From: Treponema sp.
Lineage (GTDB): Bacteria > Spirochaetota > Spirochaetia > Treponematales > Breznakiellaceae
Length of the DNA stretch: 44,330 nt
Assembly (NCBI GenBank): GCA_031280155.1
Contig: JAITHD010000027.1
Coordinates: 1 to 44,330, forward strand
Reading direction: 5' to 3'
Positions 26,314-41,471 of the stretch are shown piece by piece. Numbering within the stretch: the first letter of the stretch is position 1; every line of letters starts with the position of its first letter. Below the pieces are notes generated by a model. That model had not been told where the DNA came from and did not search any database. It saw only the letters and a program-made list of their open reading frames with translations. The position numbers were made by a program, and so were the translations under genes.

Positions 26314-27594
26314 ATGGAATATTTTGAAGAACAAGCCTTAACGTACACCGAATGTCTCAATAAAATCCGTACCAAGTATGGAGATCGGTTTACGATACTG
26401 AGCCATAGAAATATTCGTATAGGAGGAATTTTTAATGGGCTTTTTTTCGCAAAAGATGGAGTAGAAATTAGAGGATACGCTTCAAACAATGTAATAAAAT
26501 CTGGAACGTTTCAGGGCGGTATTCCGTCAGCACCGATTCTGGGGGGACCAGAATCAGGGTCTCGAAAACAGTCCCAGCCTTTGGATTTTGAGGAAGAGAA
26601 AAAAAAATTTCTGCAAGAAGTTTCGCCTTCAGTTAAAGGGGAAAGCATCGCTTTACAGCAAGTATTGAAAGAAGTACAGGATTTAAAACGGGAAATTGCC
26701 GCTAATACTTCGTCTGTTCAAACTGAAAAACACGCTACTATTAGCCGTATTGAAGAAATTTTGGATCTTAATGATTTTTCACCTGCCTACAGTCAAAATA
26801 TTTTGGATCGTATCAAAAAAGAATTTTCCCTCGATAGTCTTGATGATTACAATACTGTACAAGATAAAGTGCTGGAATGGATCGGAGAAAGTATTATTTT
26901 ATATAAAGAAGAAAAATTTCAACGCCTCCCTCGAATTATGGTGCTGGTAGGACCTACAGGAGTTGGCAAGACCACAACGATTGCTAAATTAGCCGCTATT
27001 TATGGAATTGGGAATTCCGGGCGGCGTCCTATTTCAGTGCGGATGATTACTATCGACGCCTTCAGGATCGGCGCTAAAGAGCAGATAAACGCTTACGGCA
27101 GTATTATGGCGTTGCCGGTTTCTTATGTGGAAGATTATGACGATATGAAAAAAACTATAGCTCAGTATTCAGAAGGCACTGATTTGATGCTGATTGATAC
27201 TATTGGCAAAAGTCCGCGAGATTCGGTGAATCTAGGGCAGATGAAGCAGTTGCTGGATGCCTGCGGAACTCAGGCAGAGCTGTACCTCGCGGTAGCGGCG
27301 ACTACTAAATTAAGCGATCTTAAAGAAATAATACGGCAATTTGAGCCTTTTAATTATCGGTCTGTGATTATTACAAAGCTGGATGAGACGATACGGGTAG
27401 GGAATGTGATCAGTGCGCTTTCTGATTTGGGAAAATCCGTCTCGTATATCACCGATGGGCAGAAGGTTCCTGCTAATATACAAAAAGCTACAATAGTTCG
27501 GTTTCTTATCAATATTGAAGGGTTTCAGGTCAACAGGGCAAAAATTGAAGCCCGATTCCCCACAGATGAAGCCGAACAAATACAATGGAGATAG
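26314..27594 (+). CDS. flhF: SRP-type GTPase FlhF
   Basis: FlhF marks the pole where flagella are built. The 426 residues have an N-terminal basic B domain, a helical N domain (about 120-200) and a GTPase G domain with GPTGVGKT (213-220), TIDAFRIGAKEQI and DTIGKSPRD. The DxxG motif is present, but Ile replaces the common Ala (DTAG). The C-terminal TKLDET box binds guanine. It works with FlhG encoded 3 nt downstream. AGGAGG lies upstream of the ATG. Confidence 0.95.
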   Translation: MEYFEEQALTYTECLNKIRTKYGDRFTILSHRNIRIGGIFNGLFFAKDGVEIRGYASNNVIKSGTFQGGIPSAPILGGPESGSRKQSQPLDFEEEKKKFLQEVSPSVKGESIALQQVLKEVQDLKREIAANTSSVQTEKHATISRIEEILDLNDFSPAYSQNILDRIKKEFSLDSLDDYNTVQDKVLEWIGESIILYKEEKFQRLPRIMVLVGPTGVGKTTTIAKLAAIYGIGNSGRRPISVRMITIDAFRIGAKEQINAYGSIMALPVSYVEDYDDMKKTIAQYSEGTDLMLIDTIGKSPRDSVNLGQMKQLLDACGTQAELYLAVAATTKLSDLKEIIRQFEPFNYRSVIITKLDETIRVGNVISALSDLGKSVSYITDGQKVPANIQKATIVRFLINIEGFQVNRAKIEARFPTDEAEQIQWR

Positions 27595-27597
27595 ATT

Positions 27598-28500
27598 ATG
27601 GCAATAGAAGACCAGGCTGAAATATTACGGGAAATGATGCGTAAAAAGAATAGCGCCGAAAGACCGGTACTGGTTACTCCTAAGGAGACGAAAAAAGCCC
27701 GGATCATAACGGTTACCAGCGGTAAGGGCGGCGTTGGAAAGACTAATATCTCGGTAAATATGGCTTTAGCTTATGTCCGGCTTGGAAAAAAAGTAGTGGT
27801 TATGGATGCGGATTTGGGACTTGCCAATGTAAACGTTATACTCGGTATTATTCCTAAATTTACCTTGTATCATGTGATGCATAAAAATAAAACCATGAAA
27901 GAAATTCTCGTGGAAACTGAGTATGGTATTTCCATTGTGGCTGGCGCTTCAGGGCTTTCCAAAATCGCCAATCTGACTGAAGATGAACGGCAGAATTTAA
28001 TCAATGAACTGGATTCGCTTTCTGATGTGGATATTATTATTATTGATACCAGCGCGGGGGTTTCCAGTAATGTAATTGATTTTATCGTTGCCGCGGACGA
28101 TGCGGTGATCATCACTACTCCAGAACCTACGGCTATTACCGACGCTTACGGCATCATTAAGATAATCGCTACTGAATTCGGCAGTCTTAACTTGGGACTA
28201 AAACTGGTAGTGAATCGGGTAAAAAGCGTTACCGAGGCGAAAAGAGTAGCTGACCGAATGACTAATATCGCGGGGCAGTTTTTGAATCTCAAGGTAGATT
28301 ATTTGGGATTTATTTATGACGATACGGTGGTTGCCCAAGGCGTGTTGCGGCAGAGACCTTTTATGACCATAGACCCCAAGAGCAAGGCATCCCTGTGTGT
28401 CCAACACATTGCGGATCGTATGGAAAAAACTGAAGTCGTCCGAGACCGAGAAGGCGGCGGTTTTACCGCTATGATCCGGCGGCTTTTTGGTCGGGCTTAA
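27598..28500 (+). CDS. flhG: Flagellum number regulator FlhG (MinD/ParA-like ATPase)
   Basis: FlhG limits flagellar number and activates the FlhF GTPase. The 300 residues start with the DQAEILREMM activator helix (5-14) characteristic of FlhG. A deviant Walker A SGKGGVGKT follows (41-49), then MDADLGLANVNVILG, a Walker B in DIIIIDTSAGVS, and a C-terminal amphipathic membrane-targeting helix (MIRRLFGRA). The helix and the DQA motif separate it from true MinD. It lies directly after flhF. Confidence 0.95.
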   Translation: MAIEDQAEILREMMRKKNSAERPVLVTPKETKKARIITVTSGKGGVGKTNISVNMALAYVRLGKKVVVMDADLGLANVNVILGIIPKFTLYHVMHKNKTMKEILVETEYGISIVAGASGLSKIANLTEDERQNLINELDSLSDVDIIIIDTSAGVSSNVIDFIVAADDAVIITTPEPTAITDAYGIIKIIATEFGSLNLGLKLVVNRVKSVTEAKRVADRMTNIAGQFLNLKVDYLGFIYDDTVVAQGVLRQRPFMTIDPKSKASLCVQHIADRMEKTEVVRDREGGGFTAMIRRLFGRA

Positions 28501-28529: not shown

Positions 28530-29312
28530 ATGTTCAGTATAAAAGCAAGCGGTATTTCCGCGGGAATTGCGTTCCTCTTATCTCTGCTGATAGGATTTAT
28601 CAGCGGAGGCAGTTTTTTTATCGTTTTCCTGCGAGCCGGCGCGTGCGGCGCAGTTTTTTTTCTCTTGATTGCGGGACTGTATATGATTGCCCATAAGTTT
28701 ATCCCTGAATTGTTTCAAGCAGTACAGGACGAGGAAACCAAAAATGAGAACGCCCCAGGATCGCATGTGGATATTTCAGTACAGGACGAGGAAACCCAAG
28801 GAGCCCCTGAGACCGCCGCCCCCCCGCCGGAACAGGAGCCGCCAAAGGAAAGCAAACCTCTGGTAAAAGATCCTGATACGGCTTTTAAGGAGGCTGTAGC
28901 GGCGGCATTGAATCCTCAAGAACTTCCCTCAGAAGCCGGTGCGGGTCTAGATCAGAACCATGAAAAAGAGTATACTCAAGAAGAAAAGGCAACGGAAGCG
29001 CCTGTTGAGGCTGGAGTTGAGGCGGTGCCGCCGGAATCCCAGCCTCAGCCCCAACAGGAATCGGCTGCGCCTACAGTCCCAGAGATTACGGTGGCGCCGG
29101 CGGCGTCCCAATCGCAGGAACCAGAGTTAGACCCTTGGGAGGAGATTTCCCCTCCTCCGGCGGAGGGTGAGCATAAGCCTAAATTGTCTATACCGGCAAA
29201 GGCGCAGAGTAGTAATAGCGGGGCGCAAGAGAATAAATCTCAAATGGATCCTAAAAAATTGGACCCAAAACAGATGGCGTCTACGATACAAAACATGTTA
29301 AGACAAGAATAA
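28530..29312 (+). CDS. Membrane-anchored Pro/Glu-rich protein between flhG and fliA
   Basis: This 260-residue protein is of unknown function. The first 60 residues hold two membrane helices (about 6-28 and 31-53, GISAGIAFLLSLLIGFISGG and AGACGAVFFLLIAGLYMI). The rest is a disordered cytoplasmic or periplasmic tail rich in Glu, Pro and Ala. A 20-bp direct repeat (28720-28739 and 28777-28796) encodes VQDEET twice, 57 bp apart, evidence of a small in-frame duplication. The last 25 residues (KLDPKQMASTIQNMLRQE) look like a conserved amphipathic helix. Position inside the FlhF-FlhG-sigma-28 block suggests a flagellar role. Confidence 0.8.
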   Translation: MFSIKASGISAGIAFLLSLLIGFISGGSFFIVFLRAGACGAVFFLLIAGLYMIAHKFIPELFQAVQDEETKNENAPGSHVDISVQDEETQGAPETAAPPPEQEPPKESKPLVKDPDTAFKEAVAAALNPQELPSEAGAGLDQNHEKEYTQEEKATEAPVEAGVEAVPPESQPQPQQESAAPTVPEITVAPAASQSQEPELDPWEEISPPPAEGEHKPKLSIPAKAQSSNSGAQENKSQMDPKKLDPKQMASTIQNMLRQE

Positions 29313-29323
29313 GAGGATGAGAT

Positions 29324-30112
29324 ATGGGGAATGTCCCCCTGGAGCAAAGAACAGAAGAAGAGCTTTGGCTGGCATACCGCCAAAACAGAGATTCAAAAAT
29401 CCGGGAAACTTTTATAAAGCAATATGCCCCTTTAGTCAAGTATGTGGCTGGTAAAGTCGCAATCGGTATGCCTCATAACGTAGAATTTGACGATCTGGTA
29501 GGGTATGGCGTTTTTGGTCTCTTAGACGCTATTGATAAATTTGATCCTGACAAAGGGGTTAAGTTCAAAACCTATGCGGTTACCCGAATTCGAGGCGCTA
29601 TCTTTGATGAGCTTCGTTCTATAGATTGGGTGCCTCGGTCAGTACGGCAGAAAACCAGAGAGGTTGAGGAAGCTATCGGCTCTCTTGAAGCCCAGCTTGG
29701 GCGAACCGCCAGCGAGCAGGAAATCGCTGAACATCTGCGTATGGACGGCGACGAGTACCAGAAAACCATGATGAAAATATCCGGTACTGCTATACTTTCT
29801 CTCAACGATGTATGGTTTTCCGGCGATGAAAATGATAAAGTTTCTATAGGGGACAGTATTGAATCCCCGGTAAGTTTGAATCCTGATGTTATTGTAGAGA
29901 AAGATGAAATCCGTCGAGTCATTGTGGAACATATCAATGAACTGCCGGATAAAGAAAAAAAGATTTTGGTACTGTATTACTATGAGGATCTGACCTTAAA
30001 AGAGATAGGTCAAGTATTAGAAGTAACCGAGTCGCGAGTGTCCCAGTTGCATACCAAGGCAATAAGCAGGCTCCGGTCGAAATTGACGAATATTCGTAAG
30101 GGAATCGTATAG
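29324..30112 (+). CDS. fliA: Flagellar sigma factor sigma-28 (FliA/WhiG)
   Basis: The sigma factor directs late flagellar and chemotaxis genes. The 262 residues have sigma region 2 (about 25-95, [20 protein letters not shown], the -10 reading element with [18 protein letters not shown]), region 3 (about 105-165) and region 4 (about 205-255, [20 protein letters not shown], then [18 protein letters not shown]). The protein matches the FliA/WhiG group. GAGG lies 8 nt upstream. No anti-sigma FlgM gene is seen in the window, and no convincing sigma-28 promoter (TAAA-N15-GCCGATAA) was found in the intergenic regions. Confidence 0.96.
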
Positions 30113-30120
30113 GTGTTTAT

Positions 30121-32082
30121 ATGGTTGATTTTGTCCAGCTTCAGAATTTAATGAAGGAGCAGCTAGACGCGGATAGGGCTATACGCACGGTAGATGTGGA
30201 AGGTTCTAGTCTGGACGACGCGGTTGCTGAAGCGGCGGTAATGCTCAATCTGCCTTTAGGCCGGATAGAATATGAAATTGTGGAACGAGGATTCCCCGGT
30301 TTTTTAGGAACCGGTAAAAAAGTCTGGAAAATCAAAGCCTATGGACGGCTTGTTACTAAAAAGTTAGCCGATATTCTGGTTGCCGCAAAAGCCGAAGCTG
30401 AAGCGGAAGTCGAAGTTATTAAAGATAAAGACGGCGATGTTTTTGTTCTGTTGAACGACGACGGCGCTAATCTCAAAGTCATAGCCCCGAAAGGCGCAGG
30501 GAAAAAGATTACCGAAGCTGACGCTATGAAAGCCTTGCAAGCCAGAGACGCTATGGATATCGACGTAAATCTGGTGCGTATGGTAGTCAAAGAGGCGAAA
30601 GGCATCTATATCCGAGTCGCTGACTTTAACCGTAAATACTCTAATGACAGTATAGCGTCGGTAAATATTACCGATCAGGACATGAAGGCGTTTATTTCAG
30701 TGATGCCTCCGGGCATTGGGGGAGCGGATATGGGGGTTGAGACTATTATTCAGCTTTTGAAGGATAATAAGGTAGTTCACGGCATCAAACAAGATTTTTT
30801 GCAGGACTTTGTAGACCGTCCTGCCTACAAAATGCCGGTTTTAGTGGCTGAAGGAACCCCTCCGACTAACGGCAGAAACGCCTATATACACTATAATTTT
30901 AAAACCGATCCGGGCAGACCTCAGCTCAAAACCGGAAGCGATGGAAGAGTTGATTTCAAAGAGAGCAATACCATTCAGAACGTGGTTAAAGATCAGCCTT
31001 TGGGAAAGAAGGTGCCTGCTGAAGAGGGAGTTATGGGAAAAACCGTAAAAGGCGAGTTCCTTCCCGCTAAAAATGGTCAAGACTTGGATCTTACCCAGTT
31101 AATTGGCAATAACGTCCGGATCGGAGAAGATAAGGTTACGATTCTTGCGAGTTCCGCAGGGCAGGTGGTTCTTGCGGGGAACAAGATCAACGTAGAGCCA
31201 ATATACACGGTCCAGGGCAATGTGAATCTTAAAACCGGCAACATAACCTTTTTGGGATCCGTTATTGTTACCGGCAATGTGGAAGACGGGTTTTCCGTTA
31301 AAGCCACCGGAAACATTGAGATTAAAGGGACCGTTGAAAAGGCGGAGATCGAAGCCGAAGGAAATATTGTCATCCTGAAAGGGGTCAGCGGTAAAAACAT
31401 GGGTACCATAAAGTCTGGAAAATCCGTATACGCTCGGTTTATTGAAAACGCCAAAATCGAAGCCGGAAACATGGTGATCGTTACCGAAGGCATCATCAAT
31501 TCTCAGGTAGACGCATACAAGCGCATAGTTTGTCAGGGCAAGCGGGCCCGGATCGTCGGCGGCCGCTACCGGGCTTCTGAAGAGATTAACGCTAAAACCA
31601 TCGGCAGCGCCGCAAGCAATACCGAAACCCTTTGTGAAGTCGGTATAGACCCAGCCAGCAAGAAACAGCTTGACGAGCTTTTTGAAAGAAAAACGGTTGT
31701 TGAAAAAAACCTTGAAGAAGCTAAACTGAACTTCCAAACCCTCAACAACATCCTCCAGCAGCGCAAATCCCTGCCTGAAGACAAGGAAGTGCAGATGCAG
31801 CAGGTAATGGAGCAGCATAAAGCATTGACCCTTGATTTGAAACAGGTCCGGGAAGAGATAGACCGAATACAGGAAACGTTGAGCGCTATCAAAACTCGCG
31901 GACGGGTTTCGGTATCAGATAAAATCTATCCGGGAGTTAAAGTGATCATTCGGGATCAGATGGAAGATGTAAAAGTTGAGTATAAAGCCACAACCTTTAT
32001 ACTGGAAAATGATCTCATCAAGGGGGTTAAATACGAAGAGCCTGACGAAGAGGCGAAACGTCCGCCCCCGGAAATCGGTTAA
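30121..32082 (+). CDS. fapA: FapA (DUF342) polymer-type protein with N-terminal Jag_N domain
   Basis: The 653 residues begin with a Jag_N-like domain (about 18-75, IRTVDVEGSSLDDAVAEAA and a GFLGTGKKVWKIKA strand), known from the RNA-binding protein KhpB/Jag, but no KH or R3H domain follows. After this come a FapA N-terminal domain (about 150-340) and a right-handed beta-solenoid (about 360-510, repeats of the type NITFLGSVIVTGNV). A coiled coil (about 535-600) and a beta-rich C-terminus complete it. FapA is named as a flagellar assembly protein in Vibrio. The gene is 8 nt after fliA, with a weak ribosome site. Confidence 0.85.
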   Translation: MVDFVQLQNLMKEQLDADRAIRTVDVEGSSLDDAVAEAAVMLNLPLGRIEYEIVERGFPGFLGTGKKVWKIKAYGRLVTKKLADILVAAKAEAEAEVEVIKDKDGDVFVLLNDDGANLKVIAPKGAGKKITEADAMKALQARDAMDIDVNLVRMVVKEAKGIYIRVADFNRKYSNDSIASVNITDQDMKAFISVMPPGIGGADMGVETIIQLLKDNKVVHGIKQDFLQDFVDRPAYKMPVLVAEGTPPTNGRNAYIHYNFKTDPGRPQLKTGSDGRVDFKESNTIQNVVKDQPLGKKVPAEEGVMGKTVKGEFLPAKNGQDLDLTQLIGNNVRIGEDKVTILASSAGQVVLAGNKINVEPIYTVQGNVNLKTGNITFLGSVIVTGNVEDGFSVKATGNIEIKGTVEKAEIEAEGNIVILKGVSGKNMGTIKSGKSVYARFIENAKIEAGNMVIVTEGIINSQVDAYKRIVCQGKRARIVGGRYRASEEINAKTIGSAASNTETLCEVGIDPASKKQLDELFERKTVVEKNLEEAKLNFQTLNNILQQRKSLPEDKEVQMQQVMEQHKALTLDLKQVREEIDRIQETLSAIKTRGRVSVSDKIYPGVKVIIRDQMEDVKVEYKATTFILENDLIKGVKYEEPDEEAKRPPPEIG

Positions 32083-32110
32083 ATCCGAAAAAAAATAAAA
32101 GGAGGCGTTT

Positions 32111-32452
32111 ATGGCTATACAACCGCTTGATCTGCAGACCTTATTCACCCAGCTTGATAAGGTGGGGAAGCTGCAGGCTGCTCAAAAAGATGGGCTGGCT
32201 ATTCAGCAGTCTCTGCAAAATGTGCAGATTCAGAAAAAAACAGAAGAGCAGGTACATTCTGTTGAAGAACCTAAACAGACTGGAGATGGAGCGGAAGCCG
32301 TCAATGACCGAAACGCCCGCAAAAAATCTGGAGGCCAATCCCAGAATAAGGGAGAAACCGGAAAAAAAGAAGCGCCGGCTCAGGAGCAGTCCAAGAGCGC
32401 CGGCATTTTCCGAGACCCCAGTTTAGGAAAAAATATTGATATAAGCGGTTAA
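32111..32452 (+). CDS. Small charged protein of unknown function after fapA
   Basis: The 113 residues are unrecognised. They consist of an amphipathic N-terminal helix (LDLQTLFTQLDKVGKLQAAQ), a Gln-rich helix, a Lys/Glu/Gln-rich disordered middle and a conserved-looking end GIFRDPSLGKNIDISG. There is no signal peptide or membrane helix. A perfect AAGGAGG with 7 nt spacing shows that it is translated. It shares the operon with fapA and two membrane genes, so a scaffold or partner role is possible. Confidence 0.78.
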   Translation: MAIQPLDLQTLFTQLDKVGKLQAAQKDGLAIQQSLQNVQIQKKTEEQVHSVEEPKQTGDGAEAVNDRNARKKSGGQSQNKGETGKKEAPAQEQSKSAGIFRDPSLGKNIDISG

Positions 32453-32482
32453 TAGTTCTATAGTAAAAACTAAGGGGTTTAT

Positions 32483-33145
32483 ATGGATTGGTCTATTATG
32501 TTTTCAGGGACAAGCCTTATACTATGCGGGTTATTTTTTTTCTATTTTAGAGGATATCTCCGCCGCAGAACCGGATCAGAGCGGCTCTTATCGGAATTCC
32601 GGGAAGAAGTATACAAATTGATTGCTGAAATTGACGCCGCCACTGATAAGGACGCACTGCTGGTGGAAGAACGGATAAAAACCCTCAGAAGCATCTTGGA
32701 AGACGTAGATAAGCGCATCGGCGTACATATTCGGGAGATAGACCGCCGGCGTTTTCAGGAAGAAGCCTATGCGGAACTCGGCAGAAAACGGAGTATTATT
32801 GGTTCTTTTTCTGGGACCGTTCCCTCCAAAACCCCTAAAGTGGTTGAACTGTTTCCTGATATTCCCCCCAAAAATCCTGAACTCGTTGTTTTTCCTGAAA
32901 AATCTGAGGGTTCCGGGTCGGCGGACATGATTCAGGAGCCGCCGCCTTTGGAAAAGCCGAATCCCCCTCCGAAACTCCCGCATATTGTGGTTCCTGAACA
33001 GCAGCTCCAGCCTAAACCTCCTCCTTTGAGGGAACAAATCGTTGAATTATCCCGGGCTGGTCTTGATCCTAGTTTGATAGCCCTCAGATTAGGAGTCGGC
33101 GTCGCCGAAGTTGAAACCGTTCTTGCGATTGCGAAGGAATTATAA
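32483..33145 (+). CDS. Membrane-anchored protein with DUF6115/DUF2802-like C-terminus
   Basis: The 220 residues contain an N-terminal membrane helix (about 6-25, MFSGTSLILCGLFFFYF), a charged coiled coil (about 35-90), a Pro-rich disordered spacer (about 110-180) and a C-terminal helical module REQIVELSRAGLDPSLIALR followed by LGVGVAEVETVLAIAKEL. That module resembles the short helix-turn-helix-like ends of DUF2802 and DUF6115 proteins, which often sit beside flagellar genes. The family name is tentative. It is 30 nt after the small charged gene. Confidence 0.75.
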   Translation: MDWSIMFSGTSLILCGLFFFYFRGYLRRRTGSERLLSEFREEVYKLIAEIDAATDKDALLVEERIKTLRSILEDVDKRIGVHIREIDRRRFQEEAYAELGRKRSIIGSFSGTVPSKTPKVVELFPDIPPKNPELVVFPEKSEGSGSADMIQEPPPLEKPNPPPKLPHIVVPEQQLQPKPPPLREQIVELSRAGLDPSLIALRLGVGVAEVETVLAIAKEL

Positions 33146-33185
33146 TCCCTATTGTTTTTCATTAAATTGTGTTAGGATAACCGGT

Positions 33186-33800
33186 ATGAGACTATTTTGC
33201 CTCCTCTGGACGCCTTTATTGTATCTTCTGTGGTCTTCGCTCAGGCCGGAACGTACCGTTTCAGGGGTCGCCGGTATTTTATCCCTCACCTTGGGGAGCA
33301 TCGCAGGCTTAATAGCGTTTTTCTTGGGGGCGTTGGTAGACCCCGGAGGATTTGGATTGTCCCGCTGGATAAGCGGCTTTGTTGATATTGTCAGCGTACC
33401 GGTTTTGCTTCCCTTTATCGTATTTTTGATCCTTCTTCCGTTTAAGAGAACAAAAGATTTCGCTGGTTTCGCGCTGCTCTGGCTTATCCCGGATATAAGT
33501 ATCCGACTGGTGAATTGGAGCGTCCAGAACAATCCGCTGTTCCTCGTAGTGGTGCCGCTTTTGAGAAGCGGCATAGCCTTGGGCATAGGGTTCTGCATCA
33601 GCCTTATCGCGGTGAAGAAAGTTCTTACGGTTATCCTGGGAATTGTGGGAATCTTCGCCTTGCCTCTTGCCGGAGCTACCTGCTACTGGGCTTTTTTTTC
33701 CCATCAGACTGGTTGGGGATATATATGTTTCGCTATTACCTTGATTCCTGGGCTTGCCTGGCTCAGCTCTCTCTTCTTTGCCGAGAAAAATTCTCTCTGA
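33186..33800 (+). CDS. Multi-pass inner-membrane protein
   Basis: This 204-residue protein is not recognised. Five to six hydrophobic segments run through the whole length (for example LFCLLWTPLLYLLWSS, LGSIAGLIAFFLGALV, IVSVPVLLPFIVFLILLP, ALGIGFCISLIAVKK). An upstream ATG at 33111 would overlap the previous gene and add 25 polar residues with no ribosome site. The ATG at 33186 follows AGGA and gives a normal membrane protein start, so it is chosen. It is the last plus-strand gene of the flagellar run, 40 nt after the previous gene. Confidence 0.7.
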   Translation: MRLFCLLWTPLLYLLWSSLRPERTVSGVAGILSLTLGSIAGLIAFFLGALVDPGGFGLSRWISGFVDIVSVPVLLPFIVFLILLPFKRTKDFAGFALLWLIPDISIRLVNWSVQNNPLFLVVVPLLRSGIALGIGFCISLIAVKKVLTVILGIVGIFALPLAGATCYWAFFSHQTGWGYICFAITLIPGLAWLSSLFFAEKNSL

Positions 33801-33929: not shown

Positions 33930-34547
33930 ATGAAACGAATTCTTATGATCTTAGGGGTCTGCGCCGGAATTAGCGGCTCTTTATGGGCGGAAATACGATT
34001 TGATCTTGGGCTGGACCTGCTTTTTAACCAATCTTCTCGAAATATAGAAGACGATCAGGTTTTACTTAACGGGAACTTTGCCTTTGTACCTGAACTAGGT
34101 TTGTATGCCCAATTCAATATTGGTCCGGTCCATACTGGTTTGGGGCTTAGAGGGTTTTCCTATCTTATCGCGTACACGAGCCTGTGGCCCTCGGTATATA
34201 TCGAGGTGAATGTTTCTAAAGTTACGTTTCATGCGGGGGTAGGGGGCTATGTATACGGTATACTTGATCTTTTCGGCGGCGGCGTGGAGATCGCGGGGGG
34301 CGGCGAAGTCCGCACTTATTCAGCGGCTCAGGTACGGTTAAACAAAACCCTTATCCCTGAAGTTTCAGTCTGGTTCCGATTCGGGAGATTTTCCAGAATC
34401 GGCGGCGGCTGGGTAACTATCATCTCCCTTGAAGAAGGAGGGCAAAACCTTTTCGGACTAGACCCCCGGTTTTATACGGCTCTGAAATGGAGTTTCCCCA
34501 GCGAGGGCAGACGCCTCAATACAGAGGGCAAACAGCGATTTTTTTAA
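33930..34547 (+). CDS. Exported beta-rich protein, possible outer-membrane barrel
   Basis: The 205 residues start with a signal peptide (MKRILMILGVCAGISGSLWA, cleavage likely after LWA). The mature part alternates hydrophobic and polar residues in short strands rich in Gly and aromatics (FDLGLDLLFNQ, LYAQFNIGPVHTGLGLRGF, VYIEVNVSKVTFHAGVGGYVYG, EVSVWFRFGRFSRIGGGW, YTALKWSF), as expected for an outer-membrane beta-barrel of about 8-10 strands. The end is not the usual terminal aromatic strand but a basic stretch. It has its own promoter and a strong terminator, so it is a single-gene unit. Confidence 0.75.
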   Translation: MKRILMILGVCAGISGSLWAEIRFDLGLDLLFNQSSRNIEDDQVLLNGNFAFVPELGLYAQFNIGPVHTGLGLRGFSYLIAYTSLWPSVYIEVNVSKVTFHAGVGGYVYGILDLFGGGVEIAGGGEVRTYSAAQVRLNKTLIPEVSVWFRFGRFSRIGGGWVTIISLEEGGQNLFGLDPRFYTALKWSFPSEGRRLNTEGKQRFF

Positions 34548-34720: not shown

Positions 34721-36898
34721 ATGAAACTTAAATTTAAACTAACGATAATAATTGTAACCATGATGTTTGTAGTAATAGCGGGAATTTCGTTTATGCTTCT
34801 TAAACGGGCTGTTGATCTTGAAACTAAATCAGGTTATGAAATTATCCAGAACGCAACTGGTCTGTACGCCACAGACATCCAGCGGCGATATAGAGTGTAT
34901 TATGATACGGTTAAAGCCATGGCGGAAATTATGAATAGTTATGAAGAAGTTGACGTCTCTATGCGGCGGTTTATGTACAGCGAAAATCTCAAAGCCATTG
35001 CCGCGTCAAATCCAAGGTTTGTGCGGATTTATACTGTGTGGAAACCGGGACTCCTTGATGCCAGAGATGAGGAATTAGCCGACACTCCGGGGACCGACGC
35101 TACCGGAAACTTTATCCCCTGTTATACCCGTGAAACCGGCTCAGTAGTCTTACAGCCTTTTAAAAGCGCCCAAAACCTGATCAGCAGGATGCCGAATCTT
35201 CCAGTCATTGGAAATCCCCAGCCCCGTATCGTTGGAGGGCGTAACACCTATACCACCGATATACTGTATCCTATTCTTATAGGGGATGATCCCAATAAAC
35301 TCGTGGGAATCGTGGGAATTAGTCTCGATCTTGAATATACCCAGGAACTCATCACGGGAATCCGTCTCTACGAAGGCACCGGCTATGCGGCATTGTGCAG
35401 TAATGACGGAACTATCGTAGCTCATGGAAAAAACTCTGAACGAATCGGCGGGAAATTTCAGCAGACTTCCGGTTCTTCTCTAGGGGAAGAAGAGATTAGA
35501 ACCTTTGAAAAAGCATTGAAAACCGGTGAGCCTATTACGATTATCGTAGGAAACCGTATCCTCCAAGCCTATCCCTTTCACATAGGCGACAGCGTAACCC
35601 CTTGGATGCTCATAGCCGATGTGGATATTCGGGAAGTCCTAGACTCGGTGTACGACATGATCGGCTACACCGCGATTATCGCGGTAGTTGTTTTGGTCAT
35701 TGCCGGAGGGGTAAGTTTTTTTGTCGCCCACCGGATTGCGGATCCTATTGTTGACGTGTCCCTGACCTTGAAAGATATTTCTGAAGGCGAAGGAGACCTG
35801 ACTCATCATATTAGGGTTCCCTCTCACGACGAAATCGGGGATCTCGGGAATTACTTTAATCATACCTTAGAAAAAATTAAAACCGTTGTGATTACTATTA
35901 AAAATCAGTCTGAAACCCTCTCAAATATTGGCTATGAATTGTCGTCTCACATGATTGAAACCGCCGCGGCGGTAAACCAAATCACTTCTAATATGCAGAG
36001 CATTAAAGGACAGGTCATAAATCAGTCTGCAAGCGTCAGTGAAACTCACGCAACCATAGAACAGATTGTCGCCAATATCGACAAACTCGATGATCAGATT
36101 GACCGCCAGACCGAGAGCGTTGCTCAGTCTTCGTCAGCTATTGAAGAGATGTTGGCAAATATTCAGTCTGTGACTAGGACTCTGGGTAAAAATACCGATA
36201 ATGTTAAAGAGTTAGCCGAAGCCTCTGAGGTGGGACGGTCAGGGCTTCAGGAAGTCGCTGCGGATATTCAAGAGATAGAGCGGGAATCCGCGGGGCTTTT
36301 GGAGATCAACGCGGTCATGGAAAACATCGCCAGCCAGACGAATCTGCTCTCGATGAACGCCGCCATCGAAGCGGCTCACGCCGGAGAAGCCGGCAAGGGC
36401 TTTGCGGTGGTTGCCGACGAGATCCGCAAACTCGCGGAGTCCTCTGGAGAACAGTCAAAAACTATAGCTGAGGTGCTTAAAAAGATCAAAGATTCAATTG
36501 ATAAGATCACCCGCTCTACCGAAGCGGTGTTGAGCAAGTTTGAAGCTATTGATTCAGGGGTACGGCAGGTATTAGATCAGGAGGAGGAGATTCAAAACGC
36601 TATGGAAGAACAGGGCGTTGGAAGCCGGCAGATCTTGGAAGCCATAGGTAAATTGAATGAAATCACCCAATTAGTAAAAAACGGCTCTGTAGAGATGCTT
36701 GAGGGAAGTCAACAGATTTTGAAAGAAAGTATGAATTTGGAGGTAGTAACTCATGAAATAGCCAACGGCATATCTGAAATGTTCATTGGCACGTCCCAAA
36801 TTAATGTTGCGGTAAACCAGGTAAATGTCTTGACCGGCGGCAACAAGGATAATATTGACGTATTAGTACGAGAGGTCGCCCGGTTCAAAGTTGAATGA
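34721..36898 (+). CDS. Methyl-accepting chemotaxis protein, dCache type (first of three)
   Basis: This chemoreceptor has 725 residues. A first membrane helix (about 7-28), a double-Cache periplasmic sensor (about 35-300), a second helix (about 312-335), a HAMP domain (about 336-390, [17 protein letters not shown]) and a long coiled-coil signalling domain (about 420-715) follow in order. The hairpin tip is at about residues 545-565 ([20 protein letters not shown]). The sensor shows the common [15 protein letters not shown] pattern, but the ligand cannot be told. No CheR-tethering pentapeptide ends the protein. It is followed after 33 nt by the second MCP, in the same unit. Confidence 0.95.
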
Positions 36899-36931
36899 TC
36901 TTACATCAGGGATTAGGCGGAAGGAGACAAT

Positions 36932-39103
36932 ATGAAATTAAAATTTAGACTAACCCTCATTATCACGATTCTTATGATCGTGGTAGTAAGCGTTATTTCA
37001 TTGGTATTGTTACTGCGGTCGGTGAATAATCAGATTGAAGCCGCTTACAACAATATGCAGAATACAACCGGCTTGTATGCGAAGGATTTACAGGGACGTT
37101 ACGGAGTGTATTATGGAGTTGTCAAAGCCTTGGCGGAAATTATGAACAGTTATGAAGGAGTCGAACCCGAAGATCGTCGAACCCAGTACAACGACGCTAT
37201 GCTGGGAATCATGGAATCGAATCCTAACTTTGTCGGCATCTACACCCTATGGAAGCCCGGCGTTATAGACGGTAATGATGCGGCTTTTGCTAATACCCTC
37301 GGTACCGATCAGACCGGAAACTATATTTCGTTTTACACCAGAGAATCTGGAAGTCTCAGACTTGAAGCGTATCAGAACTATCAGAGTATCATCAACTCCC
37401 TGTCTAATACGCCGGTTATCACCAAGCTGGTTCCTCGGGTTGTGTCAAACCGCAACACCTTCACGATTGATATTCAGTATCCTATCACCTCTGAACGGTC
37501 CAAGGGGATCGTCGGGACTGTCGGGATTATTGTTGATATGGCTCCTTCTCAGGAAGTAATAAACGGGCTGAAACCCTACAATGCAGGGGAAGCGCTATTG
37601 ATAGCTCATGACGGCACCATAGCGGCTCATGGAAAAGATAACACTCAGCGGGGCAAAAAGTTTCAGCAAGTCGAGATCGATATGGTCGGTTCCGAAGGCA
37701 TCAAAAATTTTGAAAACGCCTTGCAAACCGGATCTCCTTTTTTGGTCAGGTATAAATCGACGATTACTCAGGGTTATCCTTTTTATGTGGGAGATACCAA
37801 GACTCCTTGGCTTTTGGTAACGGATGTTGACGTAAACGTCGTGCTAGGTCCGGTATATGGACTGATCCTGTTTGCCTGTATCTTTGCGTTCTCTGCGTTT
37901 GCCGCTACAGTGATACTGGTATATCTAACGATTAGCCGAGCGGTTAAGCCCATTATCGACGTATCCCTTACACTCAAGGATATTTCTGAAGGCGAGGGAG
38001 ACCTTACTAAGCAGATTGAGGTGAAGTCTAATGACGAAGTAGGAGATTTGGGGCAGTATTTCAATCTTACCTTGGAAAAGATTAAAAATCTGGTGATTAT
38101 CATTAAAAAGCAGGCAGGAACCCTCTTTGATATTGGGTATGAACTGTCTTCTAACATGACCGAGACCGCCTCGGCGGTTAATCAGATTACCGCTAATGTC
38201 CAAAACATTAAAAACCGCGTGATCAACCAGTCCGCAAGCGTAACCGAAACGAATGCGACCATAGAACAGATTGTCTCCAATATTCACAAACTCAACGAAC
38301 ACATTGATGAGCAGTCTGAAAGCGTCGAACAGTCTTCGTCCGCAATCGAACAGATGTTGGTGAATATTCAGTCTGTAACCCAGACTTTAGTTAAAAATGC
38401 AAACAACGTCCAGACCTTGGCTGAGGCCTCTGAGGTGGGACGGTCAGGGCTTCAGGAAGTCGCCGGGGATATTCAGGAGATAGCCAAAGAATCCGCGGGG
38501 CTTTTGGAGATTAACGCGGTCATGGAAAACATCGCCAGCCAGACGAATCTGCTCTCAATGAACGCCGCCATCGAAGCGGCTCATGCCGGAGAAGTCGGCA
38601 AGGGCTTTGCGGTAGTTGCCGACGAGATCCGCAAACTCGCGGAATCTTCCAGCGAACAGTCTAAGACCATAGCCACGGTTCTCAAGAAAATCAAAGAATC
38701 CATTGATAAGATCACGGTTTCCACCAACGAGGTACTGAACAAGTTTGAAGCCATAGATTCAGGAGTGCGGAACGTGCTGGATCAGGAAGAGCATGTCCGA
38801 AACGCTATGGAAGAGCAGGGCATTGGGAGCAAGCAGATTCTGGAAGCTATCAGTAAACTCAATGGGATCACCAATGTCGTGAAGCACGGTTCTATGGAAA
38901 TGCTCGAAGGAAGCCAGCAAATTTTGAAAGAAAGCCGTAATTTGGAGCATGTAACCCAAGAAATCGCCAACGGTATTTCCGAAATGTCCGGCGGCGCGGC
39001 TCAAATCAATGTCGCCGTGAATCGAGTAAATACCATAAGCGGGCAAAATAAAGAAAATATTGATATTCTTGTGCAGGAAGTCTCACGGTTTAAGGTTGAA
39101 TAG
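36932..39103 (+). CDS. Methyl-accepting chemotaxis protein, dCache type (second of three)
   Basis: The 723 residues have the same domain order as the first receptor, and the two are clearly paralogues ([12 protein letters not shown] against [12 protein letters not shown] at the N-terminus). The sensor differs more than the signalling domain, as expected after duplication for a new ligand ([20 protein letters not shown]). The tip carries HAGEVGKG, where Val replaces the Ala of the other two copies. AAGGAG precedes the ATG by 6 nt. Transcription probably continues from the first MCP promoter. A hairpin follows at 39112-39150. Confidence 0.95.
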
Positions 39104-39111
39104 GGGTAATA

Positions 39112-39150
39112 ATTCTTTGGGAAGGGTAAAATTATACTTTCCTAAAGAAT
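39112..39150 (+). terminator. Long hairpin after the second MCP gene
   Basis: ATTCTTTGGGAAGG (39112-39125) pairs with CTTTCCTAAAGAAT (39137-39150) over 14 bp with two G-U pairs. T-rich sequence begins about 11 nt later (TTTTTAAATT, then long T runs). It likely ends the first MCP unit, although the T run is not immediately adjacent. Confidence 0.55.
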
Positions 39151-39214
39151 ATACCAAAATCTTTTTAAATTCTTTCCATTTTTTTTATTTTTTTCTCATT
39201 GAAACGCCGAAATA

Positions 39215-39243
39215 TTGTTTTAGAGTCGTTTTATATTTATTAT
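39215..39243 (+). promoter_or_regulatory. Promoter of the third MCP gene
   Basis: TTGTTT (39215-39220), 17 bp, TATTAT (39238-39243). Transcription would begin near 39250, leaving a leader of about 47 nt that holds AAGGAGG (39279-39285). This is a standard led promoter, unlike the one before the first MCP. Confidence 0.5.
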
Positions 39244-39296
39244 CTATAAAATACTAAATTCTGGATAAACTTTTGATTAAGGAGGTTTACAATTAT

Positions 39297-41471
39297 ATGA
39301 AGCTGAAATACAGATTGACTTTGATTATTGTTTGTTTAATGATTGTAGTGGTAGCGACTATTTCTATTGTGCTTCTATCAAGAGCGGTTGAGTTCCAAAC
39401 TGAATCGGCTTATCAGAATATGGAAAACGCCGCCGCTGTTTTTGCTAAAGAGCTGAAAAGCGGCTATGTTCTATATTATGGAACTGTTAAGTCCATAGCT
39501 GAAGTGATGAACAGTTATGAGGATTTCGCTCCTGAAATGCGGCGCCATCTCTACGCTGAAACGATGCGGGGAATTACCGAATCAAATCCTCGGTATATCG
39601 GAATCTACACTGTGTGGAGACCCGGGGTTATAGACGGCAATGACGAGGCTTTTGTTAATACTCCCGGCACGGATCATACAGGCAATTTTATTTCTTTCTA
39701 TACTAGAGAATCGGGAACCTTAGAATTGAAAGCCTTTCCAGAGGCTCAACATTGGATTAATTCAATGCCTAACGCGCCGACCATGACTAATCCGGTAACT
39801 CGGACTGTAGGGAACCGCCAGGTTCTTACGGTAGATATATGCTACCCTATTATCTCGGAAAAGTCTAAAGCCATAGTGGGACTCGCGGGATTGCGGGTTG
39901 ATCTTTCCTATACCCAAACCTTGGTGAACAGCATAAAACCTTATAGGGGGGCGGGACACGCCGCATTGTACGCCGCTGATGGACTTATCATAGCTCACGG
40001 AGAAGACCAGACCAGAATAGGCAGAAAATTTCAGGATGTCTCCCGCTCAAGCCTTGGAGAACAAGGGATCAGGACCTTTGAAGAGGCCCTCAAAACCGGA
40101 CAGCCCGCATCGGTGCGGTATGGACCGAATATTGTAGCAGGGGTTCCTTTTTACGTCGGGGAAGCCAAAGAACCGCGCATGATGGTTGCGTACGTTGATA
40201 TTCAAGTCGTGCTGCATCAAGTTTATACGCTGATTGAGTTTACTATTGCATTGGCAGTTGTTGCTTTTCTCGCTACAGTCCTGCTGGTATATCTGCTGAT
40301 CAATAAGTCGGTTAAGCCCATCGTAGCCGTATCCCTTACGCTCAAGGATATTTCCGAAGGCGAAGGCGACCTGACCAAACAGATCGATGTACATTCTAAC
40401 GACGAAGTAGGGGATCTGGGACGGTATTTCAATCTTACCCTGAGCAAGATCAAAGCCTTGGTGCTTACCATCAAACAGCAGGCAGGATCCCTTTCTAATA
40501 TTGGATATGAACTGTCTTCCAACATGACTGAGACCGCCGCAGCGGTTAATCAGATTACCGCCAATATCCAAAACATTAAAACCCAGATTATGAATCAGTC
40601 CACCAGTGTAAGCCAAACAAACTCTACAATAGAACAAATCGTGGTGAGCATAAACAAACTCAATGAAAACATTGATATCCAATCAGACGACATAGCTCAT
40701 TCTTCGTCCGCCATTGAACAGATGTTGGCGAGTATCAAAGCCGTAGGTCAGACTCTTGAGAAAAACACGGAAAACGTGAAACTTTTGGCTGACGCTTCTG
40801 AAGTAGGACGTACGGGTTTACAGGATGTTGCGGCAGATATTCAAGAGATAGAGCGGGAATCCGCGGGGCTTTTGGAAATCAATGCGGTCATGGAAAATAT
40901 CGCCAGTCAAACGAATCTGCTTTCGATGAATGCCGCCATCGAAGCCGCCCACGCCGGAGAAGCCGGCAAGGGCTTTGCGGTGGTTGCCGACGAGATCCGC
41001 AAGCTTGCGGAATCTTCCAGCGAACAGTCCAAGACCATAGCCGGGGTTCTCAATAAGATCAAAGATTCGATAGACAAGATCACCAATTCCACCGAAGAGG
41101 TGCTGAACAAATTTGAAGCCATAGATGCAGGGGTTCGGGCGGTGCTGGATCAGGAGGAGCGTATCCGAAACGCTATGGAAGAACAGGGACTTGGGAGCAG
41201 GCAGATTCTCGAAGCCATCAGCAGACTGAATGAAATTACCGATGTTGTAAAAAACAGTTCTTTTGAAATGCTTGAGGGAAGCACCCAAATCTTGAATGAG
41301 AGTCGAAATCTTGAGCAAGTAACTCAGGAGATCGCCAACGGTATGTCTGAAATGTCCAGCGGTACGACTCAGATCAACGTCGCGGTAAACCGCGTGAACG
41401 TGATAAGCAGGGAGAATAAAGAAAACATTGACGTACTTGTCGAGGAAGTGTCCCGCTTCAAAGTTCAGTAA
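39297..41471 (+). CDS. Methyl-accepting chemotaxis protein, dCache type (third of three)
   Basis: This is the third paralogue, with 724 residues from the chosen start. The longer frame begins with TTG at 39273, but AAGGAGG at 39279-39285 would then lie inside the coding region. The ATG at 39297 is 11 nt from it and restores the paralogue start [12 protein letters not shown]. Domain order is as in the first MCP: sensor about 30-300, second helix about 310-335, HAMP, and tip [18 protein letters not shown]. The sensor has [18 protein letters not shown]. The C-terminus is RFKVQ, with no CheR pentapeptide. It has its own promoter. Confidence 0.95.

Follow-up and report, generated by a model that had tools for sequence, protein, structure and literature searches.

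Two flagellar membrane proteins are the closest described systems for the gene considered here. SwrB (SwrB/YlxL; family DUF6115, PF19610) is a single-pass protein that, according to genetics, promotes basal-body maturation through FliP (PMC4526659). FipA (DUF2802, PF10975) has a transmembrane (TM) helix at residues 6-28, a coil at 31-58 and a DUF2802 domain at 68-135, via which it binds FlhF; G110, E126 and L129 of VpFipA are fully conserved, and the G110A and L129A substitutions abolish FlhF binding (PMC11620751). The same paper reports FipA homologues as absent from spirochaetes and Bacillus and treats the family as gammaproteobacterial. In addition, a 2024 paper describes sigma28, FapA, a small protein ('YjfB') and a protein with a TM segment and a helix-turn-helix (HTH), 'TM+HTH', as a flagellar submodule beside FlgV, which is located in the basal body (PMC11607428). 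We find the genes of this submodule, in the same order, in a 44,330-nucleotide stretch of Treponema sp. (contig JAITHD010000027.1; the whole stretch is called the window below). We suggest, giving the proposal about an even chance, that the third open reading frame (ORF) of the group, ORF3, encodes a spirochaetal member of the SwrB/FipA class of flagellar membrane anchors, which would dock FlhF, activate the basal body under construction, or do both.

The flagellar neighbourhood is known, and the first-pass annotation, which had called the module undescribed, was mistaken in this; what is new is the assignment of ORF3, an unnamed gene, to a known kind of protein. The accessible text of PMC11607428 does not mention SwrB, FipA or Jag, and links the TM+HTH protein to neither SwrB nor FipA. 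Literature searches on DUF6115, SwrB with FlhF and SwrB with FipA returned no title or abstract opening that ties the spirochaete ORF3 to SwrB or FipA. We do not claim that the SwrB-FipA link itself is unpublished, and the FipA paper (PMC11620751) may carry a remark on SwrB beyond the part available. In Borrelia bb0267 is fapA (PMC11607428), and by position bb0266 would be ORF2 and bb0265 would be ORF3. BB0265 is described as a conserved hypothetical protein, RpoS-regulated and expressed in vivo (PMC3757035).

Similarity of ORF3 to SwrB and FipA

The gene and its head domain are placed as follows.

32483-33145, plus strand: ORF3, 220 amino acids, with a TM helix, a charged coil, a proline-rich linker and a C-terminal HTH-like three-helix domain (from profiles and a model)
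33026-33139, plus strand: C-terminal three-helix domain of ORF3, residues 182-219, putative docking domain, with G193, E209 and T212 at the positions of the FipA motif G-x15-E-x2-L

In the single-sequence model of ORF3 (mean predicted local distance difference test score, pLDDT, 58; head blocks 69-85) the predicted TM anchor is a helix at residues 10-26, of low confidence, and the head is built of helices 182-191, 196-202 and 207-219, G193 falling between the first and the second. ORF3 has matches in 73 of the 78 family genomes and in 123 of the 247 phylum genomes. When alignment A2, comprising 29 diverse ORF3 proteins, was compared with 24,736 Pfam families at an expectation value (E) of 1 or below, 27 of the 29 matched DUF6115 (best 2e-6) and 19 matched DUF2802 (best 3.1e-6), while Sigma70_r4_2, ranked third, was matched by 6. 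For A1, an earlier and narrower set of 21 proteins, the figures are 11 for DUF6115 and 11 for DUF2802.

Judged by profiles, the homology of ORF3 and SwrB appears well supported. Profile-profile comparison of ORF3 with the SwrB and Clostridia proteins gives E 9.8e-11, and with nine other operon families E 0.0093 or worse. The only match of the ORF3 profile in a 0.81-Mb Bacillus velezensis record is the gene at the swrB position (E 1.1e-9), and its top match in a 2.63-Mb record of Acetoanaerobium noterae is the gene that follows FapA (E 0.0014). Conversely, the DUF6115 model at E≤1 reaches ORF3 in 17 of 21 spirochaete genomes, ranking it first in 2, second in 10, third in 4 and fourth in 1, and misses it in 4. 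The 27-bit cut-off of DUF6115 is passed by the Borrelia-like locus L072 (27.2 bits) and by genome G128 (28.7); the Brachyspira-like genome G200 gives 29 bits in a six-frame search and 25.7 as a called protein. For PF19610 and PF10975 in the Treponema genome itself at E≤1, controls also match (13 of 14 and 10 of 14, respectively). ORF3 shares with SwrB the TM anchor, the C-terminal head, the gene position after the flagellar sigma factor and reciprocal profile matches (PMC4526659), and its predicted single anchor and its place behind fliA in the order fliA-FapA-ORF3 agree with the SwrB type. However, in B. velezensis no FapA is inserted between sigD and swrB, unlike in spirochaetes.

For FipA, DUF2802 was found in 50 of 114 gammaproteobacterial genomes around Pseudomonas aeruginosa PA7, and the 30 with loci, together with Aeromonas caviae, form alignment A4. 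A2 and A4 align over 42 C-terminal columns with a probability of 95.6 and E 1.1e-8 (1.7e-7 over 125 columns under other settings). Under those other settings, none of 200 column shuffles reached the score (47.6 versus a maximum of 20.1). FipA against the nine other operon families gives E 0.0037 or worse. The conserved residues of ORF3 in A2, G193 (29/29), E209 (28/29) and L212 (20/29), are spaced exactly as G98 (31/31), E114 (31/31) and L117 (30/31) of FipA. The FipA model (mean pLDDT 87) has helices 91-104, 109-116 and 120-134, with G106 between the first two, so the two models agree in three C-terminal helices and the position of the glycine. The proteins also share the single N-terminal TM helix, the coil and the C-terminal head (PMC11620751), and both genes are similarly placed, that of FipA ending the flhA-flhF-flhG-fliA-che block; they differ in the proline-rich linker, which is longer in ORF3.

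Several observations weigh against placing ORF3 in this class. The window protein scores 13.6 bits with DUF6115, under the cut-off, and has threonine (T212) at the leucine position of the motif, and in FipA itself E126A leaves FlhF binding unaffected (PMC11620751). Searches of the Aeromonas and P. aeruginosa records and genomes with the ORF3 profile missed FipA, and the FipA profile reached ORF3 at E≤1 in 3 of 21 spirochaete genomes, ranking it top in 1. A1 against FipA gives only E 0.0022 and aligns the N-terminus, FipA against SwrB directly gives only E 9.5e-4, and the operon family that FipA matched at E 0.0037 is the coil of FapA. Among PDB sequences the ORF3 profile finds HTH domains of the ordinary kind (Sleeping Beauty, E 0.001; RcsB, E 0.01), and the head also matches 8vd6, a repeat protein whose only name is 'CAP REPEAT' (E 1.6e-17). 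In most genomes where ORF3 is not first, the DUF6115 search is topped by a giant coiled-coil ORF (about 1,000-2,300 amino acids), which shows that the head also occurs outside flagellar loci. FlhF is, moreover, unmentioned in the accessible text of the SwrB paper (PMC4526659).

Hence, we regard the homology of ORF3 and FipA as moderately supported by the profiles, likely but not proved. We do not classify ORF3 as FipA, because the best ORF3 score shown for DUF2802 (21.8 bits, from a Borrelia-like protein) lies under the 33.5-bit cut-off, single-profile searches mostly fail, A1 is weak and the head is generally HTH-like. The DUF2802 search of the Treponema genome at E≤1 did not pick ORF3. Among 705 mechanical ORFs of 100 amino acids or more, 46, ORF3 included, have the bare pattern G-x15-E-x2-[LIVM] in their last 70 residues; being this common, the pattern is not evidence by itself. 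No PDB fold matched the FipA model at E≤0.001. Plasmid searches by tblastn with FipA or SwrB as query returned the query records only, and a scan of genome contigs yielded 35 FipA loci, of Pseudomonas and Aeromonas type only.

The giant coiled-coil ORFs, of about 1,000-2,334 amino acids where they outscore ORF3 with DUF6115 (for example G303:C1:542927-543223, G307:C1:520699-520992 and G108:C1:2314110-2314424), are probably the SpiroCoCo family of NCBIfam. The SpiroCoCo_C model (NF047515 family) matches 18 of 21 ORF3 proteins. SpiroCoCo proteins share the C-terminal head with ORF3, but the likely members are about 1,000-2,300 rather than about 200 amino acids long, and their genes do not lie beside ORF3. 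A literature search on SpiroCoCo found no paper.

Proposed role of ORF3

We suggest that the N-terminal helix would anchor ORF3 in the inner membrane, with the rest in the cytoplasm: the charged coil, the three-helix HTH-like head and, between them, a flexible linker rich in proline. The head would bind a flagellar assembly factor and not DNA; a membrane anchor with such a docking head is the simplest reading that would cover FipA and SwrB as well. FlhF would be the likeliest partner, since it is the known partner of FipA and is encoded upstream in the same block. ORF3 would hold FlhF, and with it the basal body being formed, to the membrane close to the cell ends, where spirochaete flagella are placed, and/or, similarly to SwrB, it would license the new basal body to begin export. 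This assembly complex would have two further, cytoplasmic components: FapA, acting through its Jag_N domain and solenoid, and ORF2, which resembles a linker. We infer that ORF3 may bind FlhF, act at the pole and form a complex with FapA and ORF2. The co-occurrence of ORF3 and FlhF is uninformative, as the FlhF model reaches related GTPases and matches in 246 of 247 genomes and 14 of 14 controls.

If ORF3 and SwrB are relatives of FipA, the anchor is widespread and SwrB gains FlhF as a candidate partner. Basal-body mobility has been compared among mutants of FlhF, of SwrB and of both, and the accessible part of that paper reports no interaction (PMC12153297). The role of a conserved spirochaete gene, by position bb0265 of Borrelia, would also become testable via the residues mapped in FipA.

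ORF3 might instead be an SwrB orthologue only, activating type III export through the FliP/C-ring conformation with FlhF uninvolved, and its likeness to FipA a generic helical fold. We hold this explanation to be possible, though rather unlikely: ORF3 is closer by profile to SwrB than to FipA, its synteny is shared with Clostridia and SwrB acts via FliP by genetics (PMC4526659), but 19 of 29 ORF3 proteins match DUF2802, the alignment with FipA is well above the shuffles, and the FipA positions critical for FlhF are the ones conserved in ORF3. Improbable, in our judgement, is a membrane-anchored regulator that binds DNA by the C-terminal HTH. The ORF3 profile does match HTH DNA-binding proteins among PDB sequences, and the best fold matches of the FipA model are HTH proteins, although not significant (best E 0.66). 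However, the top Pfam families for ORF3 are flagellar ones, FliA, a true HTH protein, aligns to ORF3 outside region 4 (E 0.013, residues 133-152), and the FipA domain binds a protein (PMC11620751).

A wider version of the SwrB/FipA-class proposal, which we regard as doubtful, is that in Spirochaetota, Bacillota and gammaproteobacteria the flhF-fliA block closes with one ancestral anchor of TM helix, coil, linker and head, from which SwrB, FipA and ORF3 descend, all docking FlhF via the G/E/L face. Then 'activation' in Bacillus and 'polar placement' in Vibrio would both result from a single mechanism, and the giant coiled coils, bearing this head too, would provide spirochaetes with a second, long-reach docking site.

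Gene order and module borders

The genes around ORF3 in the window were named by family searches, the remainder from sequence and position.

29324-30112, plus strand: fliA/whiG, sigma28 (NF004935, E 4.8e-127; TIGR02479, E 3.2e-88)
30121-32082, plus strand: FapA, 653 amino acids, with N-terminal Jag_N (Pfam scan)
30196-30342, plus strand: Jag_N of FapA, residues 26-74 (PF14804, 50.9 bits versus a cut-off of 25, E 2e-13)
30658-31179, plus strand: FapA_N region, residues 180-353 (PF20250, E 3e-44)
31198-32016, plus strand: FapA beta-solenoid, residues 360-632 (PF03961, E 3.4e-75)
32111-32452, plus strand: ORF2, 113 amino acids (profile matches at phylum and family loci)
33186-33800, plus strand: ORF4, multi-pass membrane protein, a neighbour outside the module

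FapA starts 8 nucleotides after fliA. FapA, ORF2, ORF3 and ORF4 are all on the plus strand with gaps of 28, 30 and 40 nucleotides, the last with the ATG start of ORF4, in agreement with the four co-directional genes spaced by about 30-40 nucleotides of the first-pass annotation.

Synteny was followed in 20 phylum loci, drawn from the 123 genomes with an ORF3 match and covering up to 19.5 kb around each, and in 12 loci of the own family, 32 in all. ORF3 lies immediately 3' of FapA in 16 of the 20 Spirochaetota loci (with ORF2 between where found), and fliA is 5' of FapA in 14 of these 16; the two exceptions are Borrelia-like, and fliA is not there. Two loci (L074, at a contig end, and L075) have ORF3 without the flagellar neighbour genes searched for, and two read as Brachyspira-like (L076, L077) keep the ORF2-ORF3 pair apart from the flagellar block. 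In the own family FapA-ORF2-ORF3 is found in 11 of 12 loci, the remaining one being a short contig that ends after ORF2. The arrangement is seen well outside this strain, so that the lack of synteny elsewhere by which the first-pass annotation would have been refuted is not observed; with Jag_N in 17 of 17 FapA proteins and the gene order in 16 of 20 phylum loci, it is beyond chance. By its gene order, FapA-(ORF2)-ORF3 is to be read as an ancient flagellar block. The accessory module for envelope or flagellar assembly that had been proposed thus stands in its flagellar half, which is linked to fliA and conserved in synteny; for the envelope half there is no evidence here.

Outside the phylum, A. 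noterae (Clostridia) has the order fliA-FapA followed by a 110-amino-acid protein with TM, coil and head, B. velezensis has a DUF6115 protein directly after sigD, the SwrB position, and the flhA-flhF-fleN-fliA-che block of P. aeruginosa closes with a DUF2802 protein. Loci of Pontibacillus, Rossellomorea, Priestia and Listeria added nothing of use to this comparison. In a 1.14-Mb treponeme-like genome (L071, 6195-14237) the block is split, fliA-FapA-ORF3 being on the strand opposite to flhG-flhF-flhA, and ORF2 was not found there. A 3.2-kb contig (G000 C55; L105, 1-3186) carries a second FapA(end)-ORF2-ORF3-ORF4, with ORF3 71% and ORF4 61% identical; this copy is either from a related strain within the bin or a genuine duplication. 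The source assembly has 2.48 Mb in 269 contigs and is 82% complete.

ORF4 can start from TTG at 33111 (229 amino acids, overlapping ORF3) or from ATG at 33186 (204 amino acids); the ATG is more likely than the listed TTG. Its homologues are present in 69 of 76 family genomes, away from ORF3 outside the own genus, and it adjoins ORF3 in only two of the 32 loci (L105 and L110), both of the own genus. The positions of ORF3 and ORF4 in complete genomes are 1.33 and 2.62 Mb (G038), 1.00 and 0.03 Mb (G033), 1.72 and 1.90 Mb (G027), and 2.30 and 1.54 Mb (G028). These separate sites exclude ORF4 from the module, of which it had been made a member. A single envelope-assembly module of all four genes, as first proposed, has in its favour the common direction and the gaps of 28-40 nucleotides, but with ORF4 so far from ORF3 in the four genomes it is highly improbable.

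FapA and ORF2

That FapA carries Jag_N without KH or R3H, as first noticed, is borne out: the Pfam scan of the window protein lists neither KH nor R3H, and its FapA_N and solenoid matches exceed the family cut-offs. Jag_N, FapA_N and the solenoid were matched in all 17 spirochaete FapA proteins scanned (the window and the 16 phylum loci with FapA), so that the Jag_N-FapA fusion is a constant trait of spirochaetal FapA rather than of a single strain. The Pfam scan of the A. noterae FapA gave no Jag_N match. KhpB/Jag (Jag_N-KH-R3H) shares Jag_N with FapA, but FapA, having neither KH nor R3H, does not belong to that family; a separate KhpB-like protein, with a Jag_N match followed by sequence that looks KH/R3H-like by eye, is encoded on contig C218 of the same assembly. 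A literature search for FapA combined with Jag_N found no paper.

ORF2 has conserved ends, xIxPIDLQTLF at the N-terminus and DPxLGKNIDISG at the C-terminus, and a variable, charged middle, an anatomy that would fit a two-headed linker. Its profile matches at 15 of 20 phylum loci and at 12 of 12 own-family loci. At the Borrelia-like L072 the profile missed, and a 103-amino-acid protein ending DPKLGKNIDIER is in its place; L073 was left out of this inspection by eye. Scans of eight ORF2 proteins at E≤10 gave no convincing Pfam family. The YjfB family, named for the small protein in PMC11607428, was unmatched in them, so that Pfam does not bear out this name for ORF2 of spirochaetes. A match to CDV3 (E 0.003) is under the cut-off and resembles charged low-complexity sequence, and this candidate was rejected as well.

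Other genes of the window

The window contains a flagellar block of spirochaetal type, in the order fliP, fliR, flhB, flhA, flhF, flhG, a 260-amino-acid protein with two TM stretches, fliA, FapA, ORF2, ORF3 and ORF4.

26314-27594, plus strand: flhF, signal recognition particle-type GTPase (TIGR03499, E 7.2e-52, above cut-off)
27598-28500, plus strand: flhG, MinD-like ATPase (AAA_31/CbiA/minD families; position after flhF)
28530-29312, plus strand: FlgV-like gene, 260 amino acids (two TM stretches, acidic tail and hydrophobic C-terminal peptide; bb0268 position)

The last of these, overlooked in the first-pass annotation, is called FlgV-like from position and shape, compared with the description of FlgV in PMC11607428; the window protein scans gave it no Pfam or NCBIfam family. 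At 13 of the 20 phylum loci, Borrelia-like ones included, a homologue occupies this place. In A. noterae a 103-amino-acid TM protein (L089, 19196-19507) lies immediately 5' of fliA, the place of FlgV in spirochaetes, and may be a short FlgV relative.

Rfam and transfer RNA scans of the window found nothing, and the promoter and terminator scans were near chance (11 versus 8.1 and 4 versus 7.2, respectively). Downstream of ORF4 there is a 205-amino-acid protein (33930-34547) with a signal-peptide-like start and a beta-rich look, for which the protein scans gave no Pfam or NCBIfam family. It is followed by three tandem genes for methyl-accepting-chemotaxis-like proteins (34721-41471), very similar to each other and 723-732 amino acids long.

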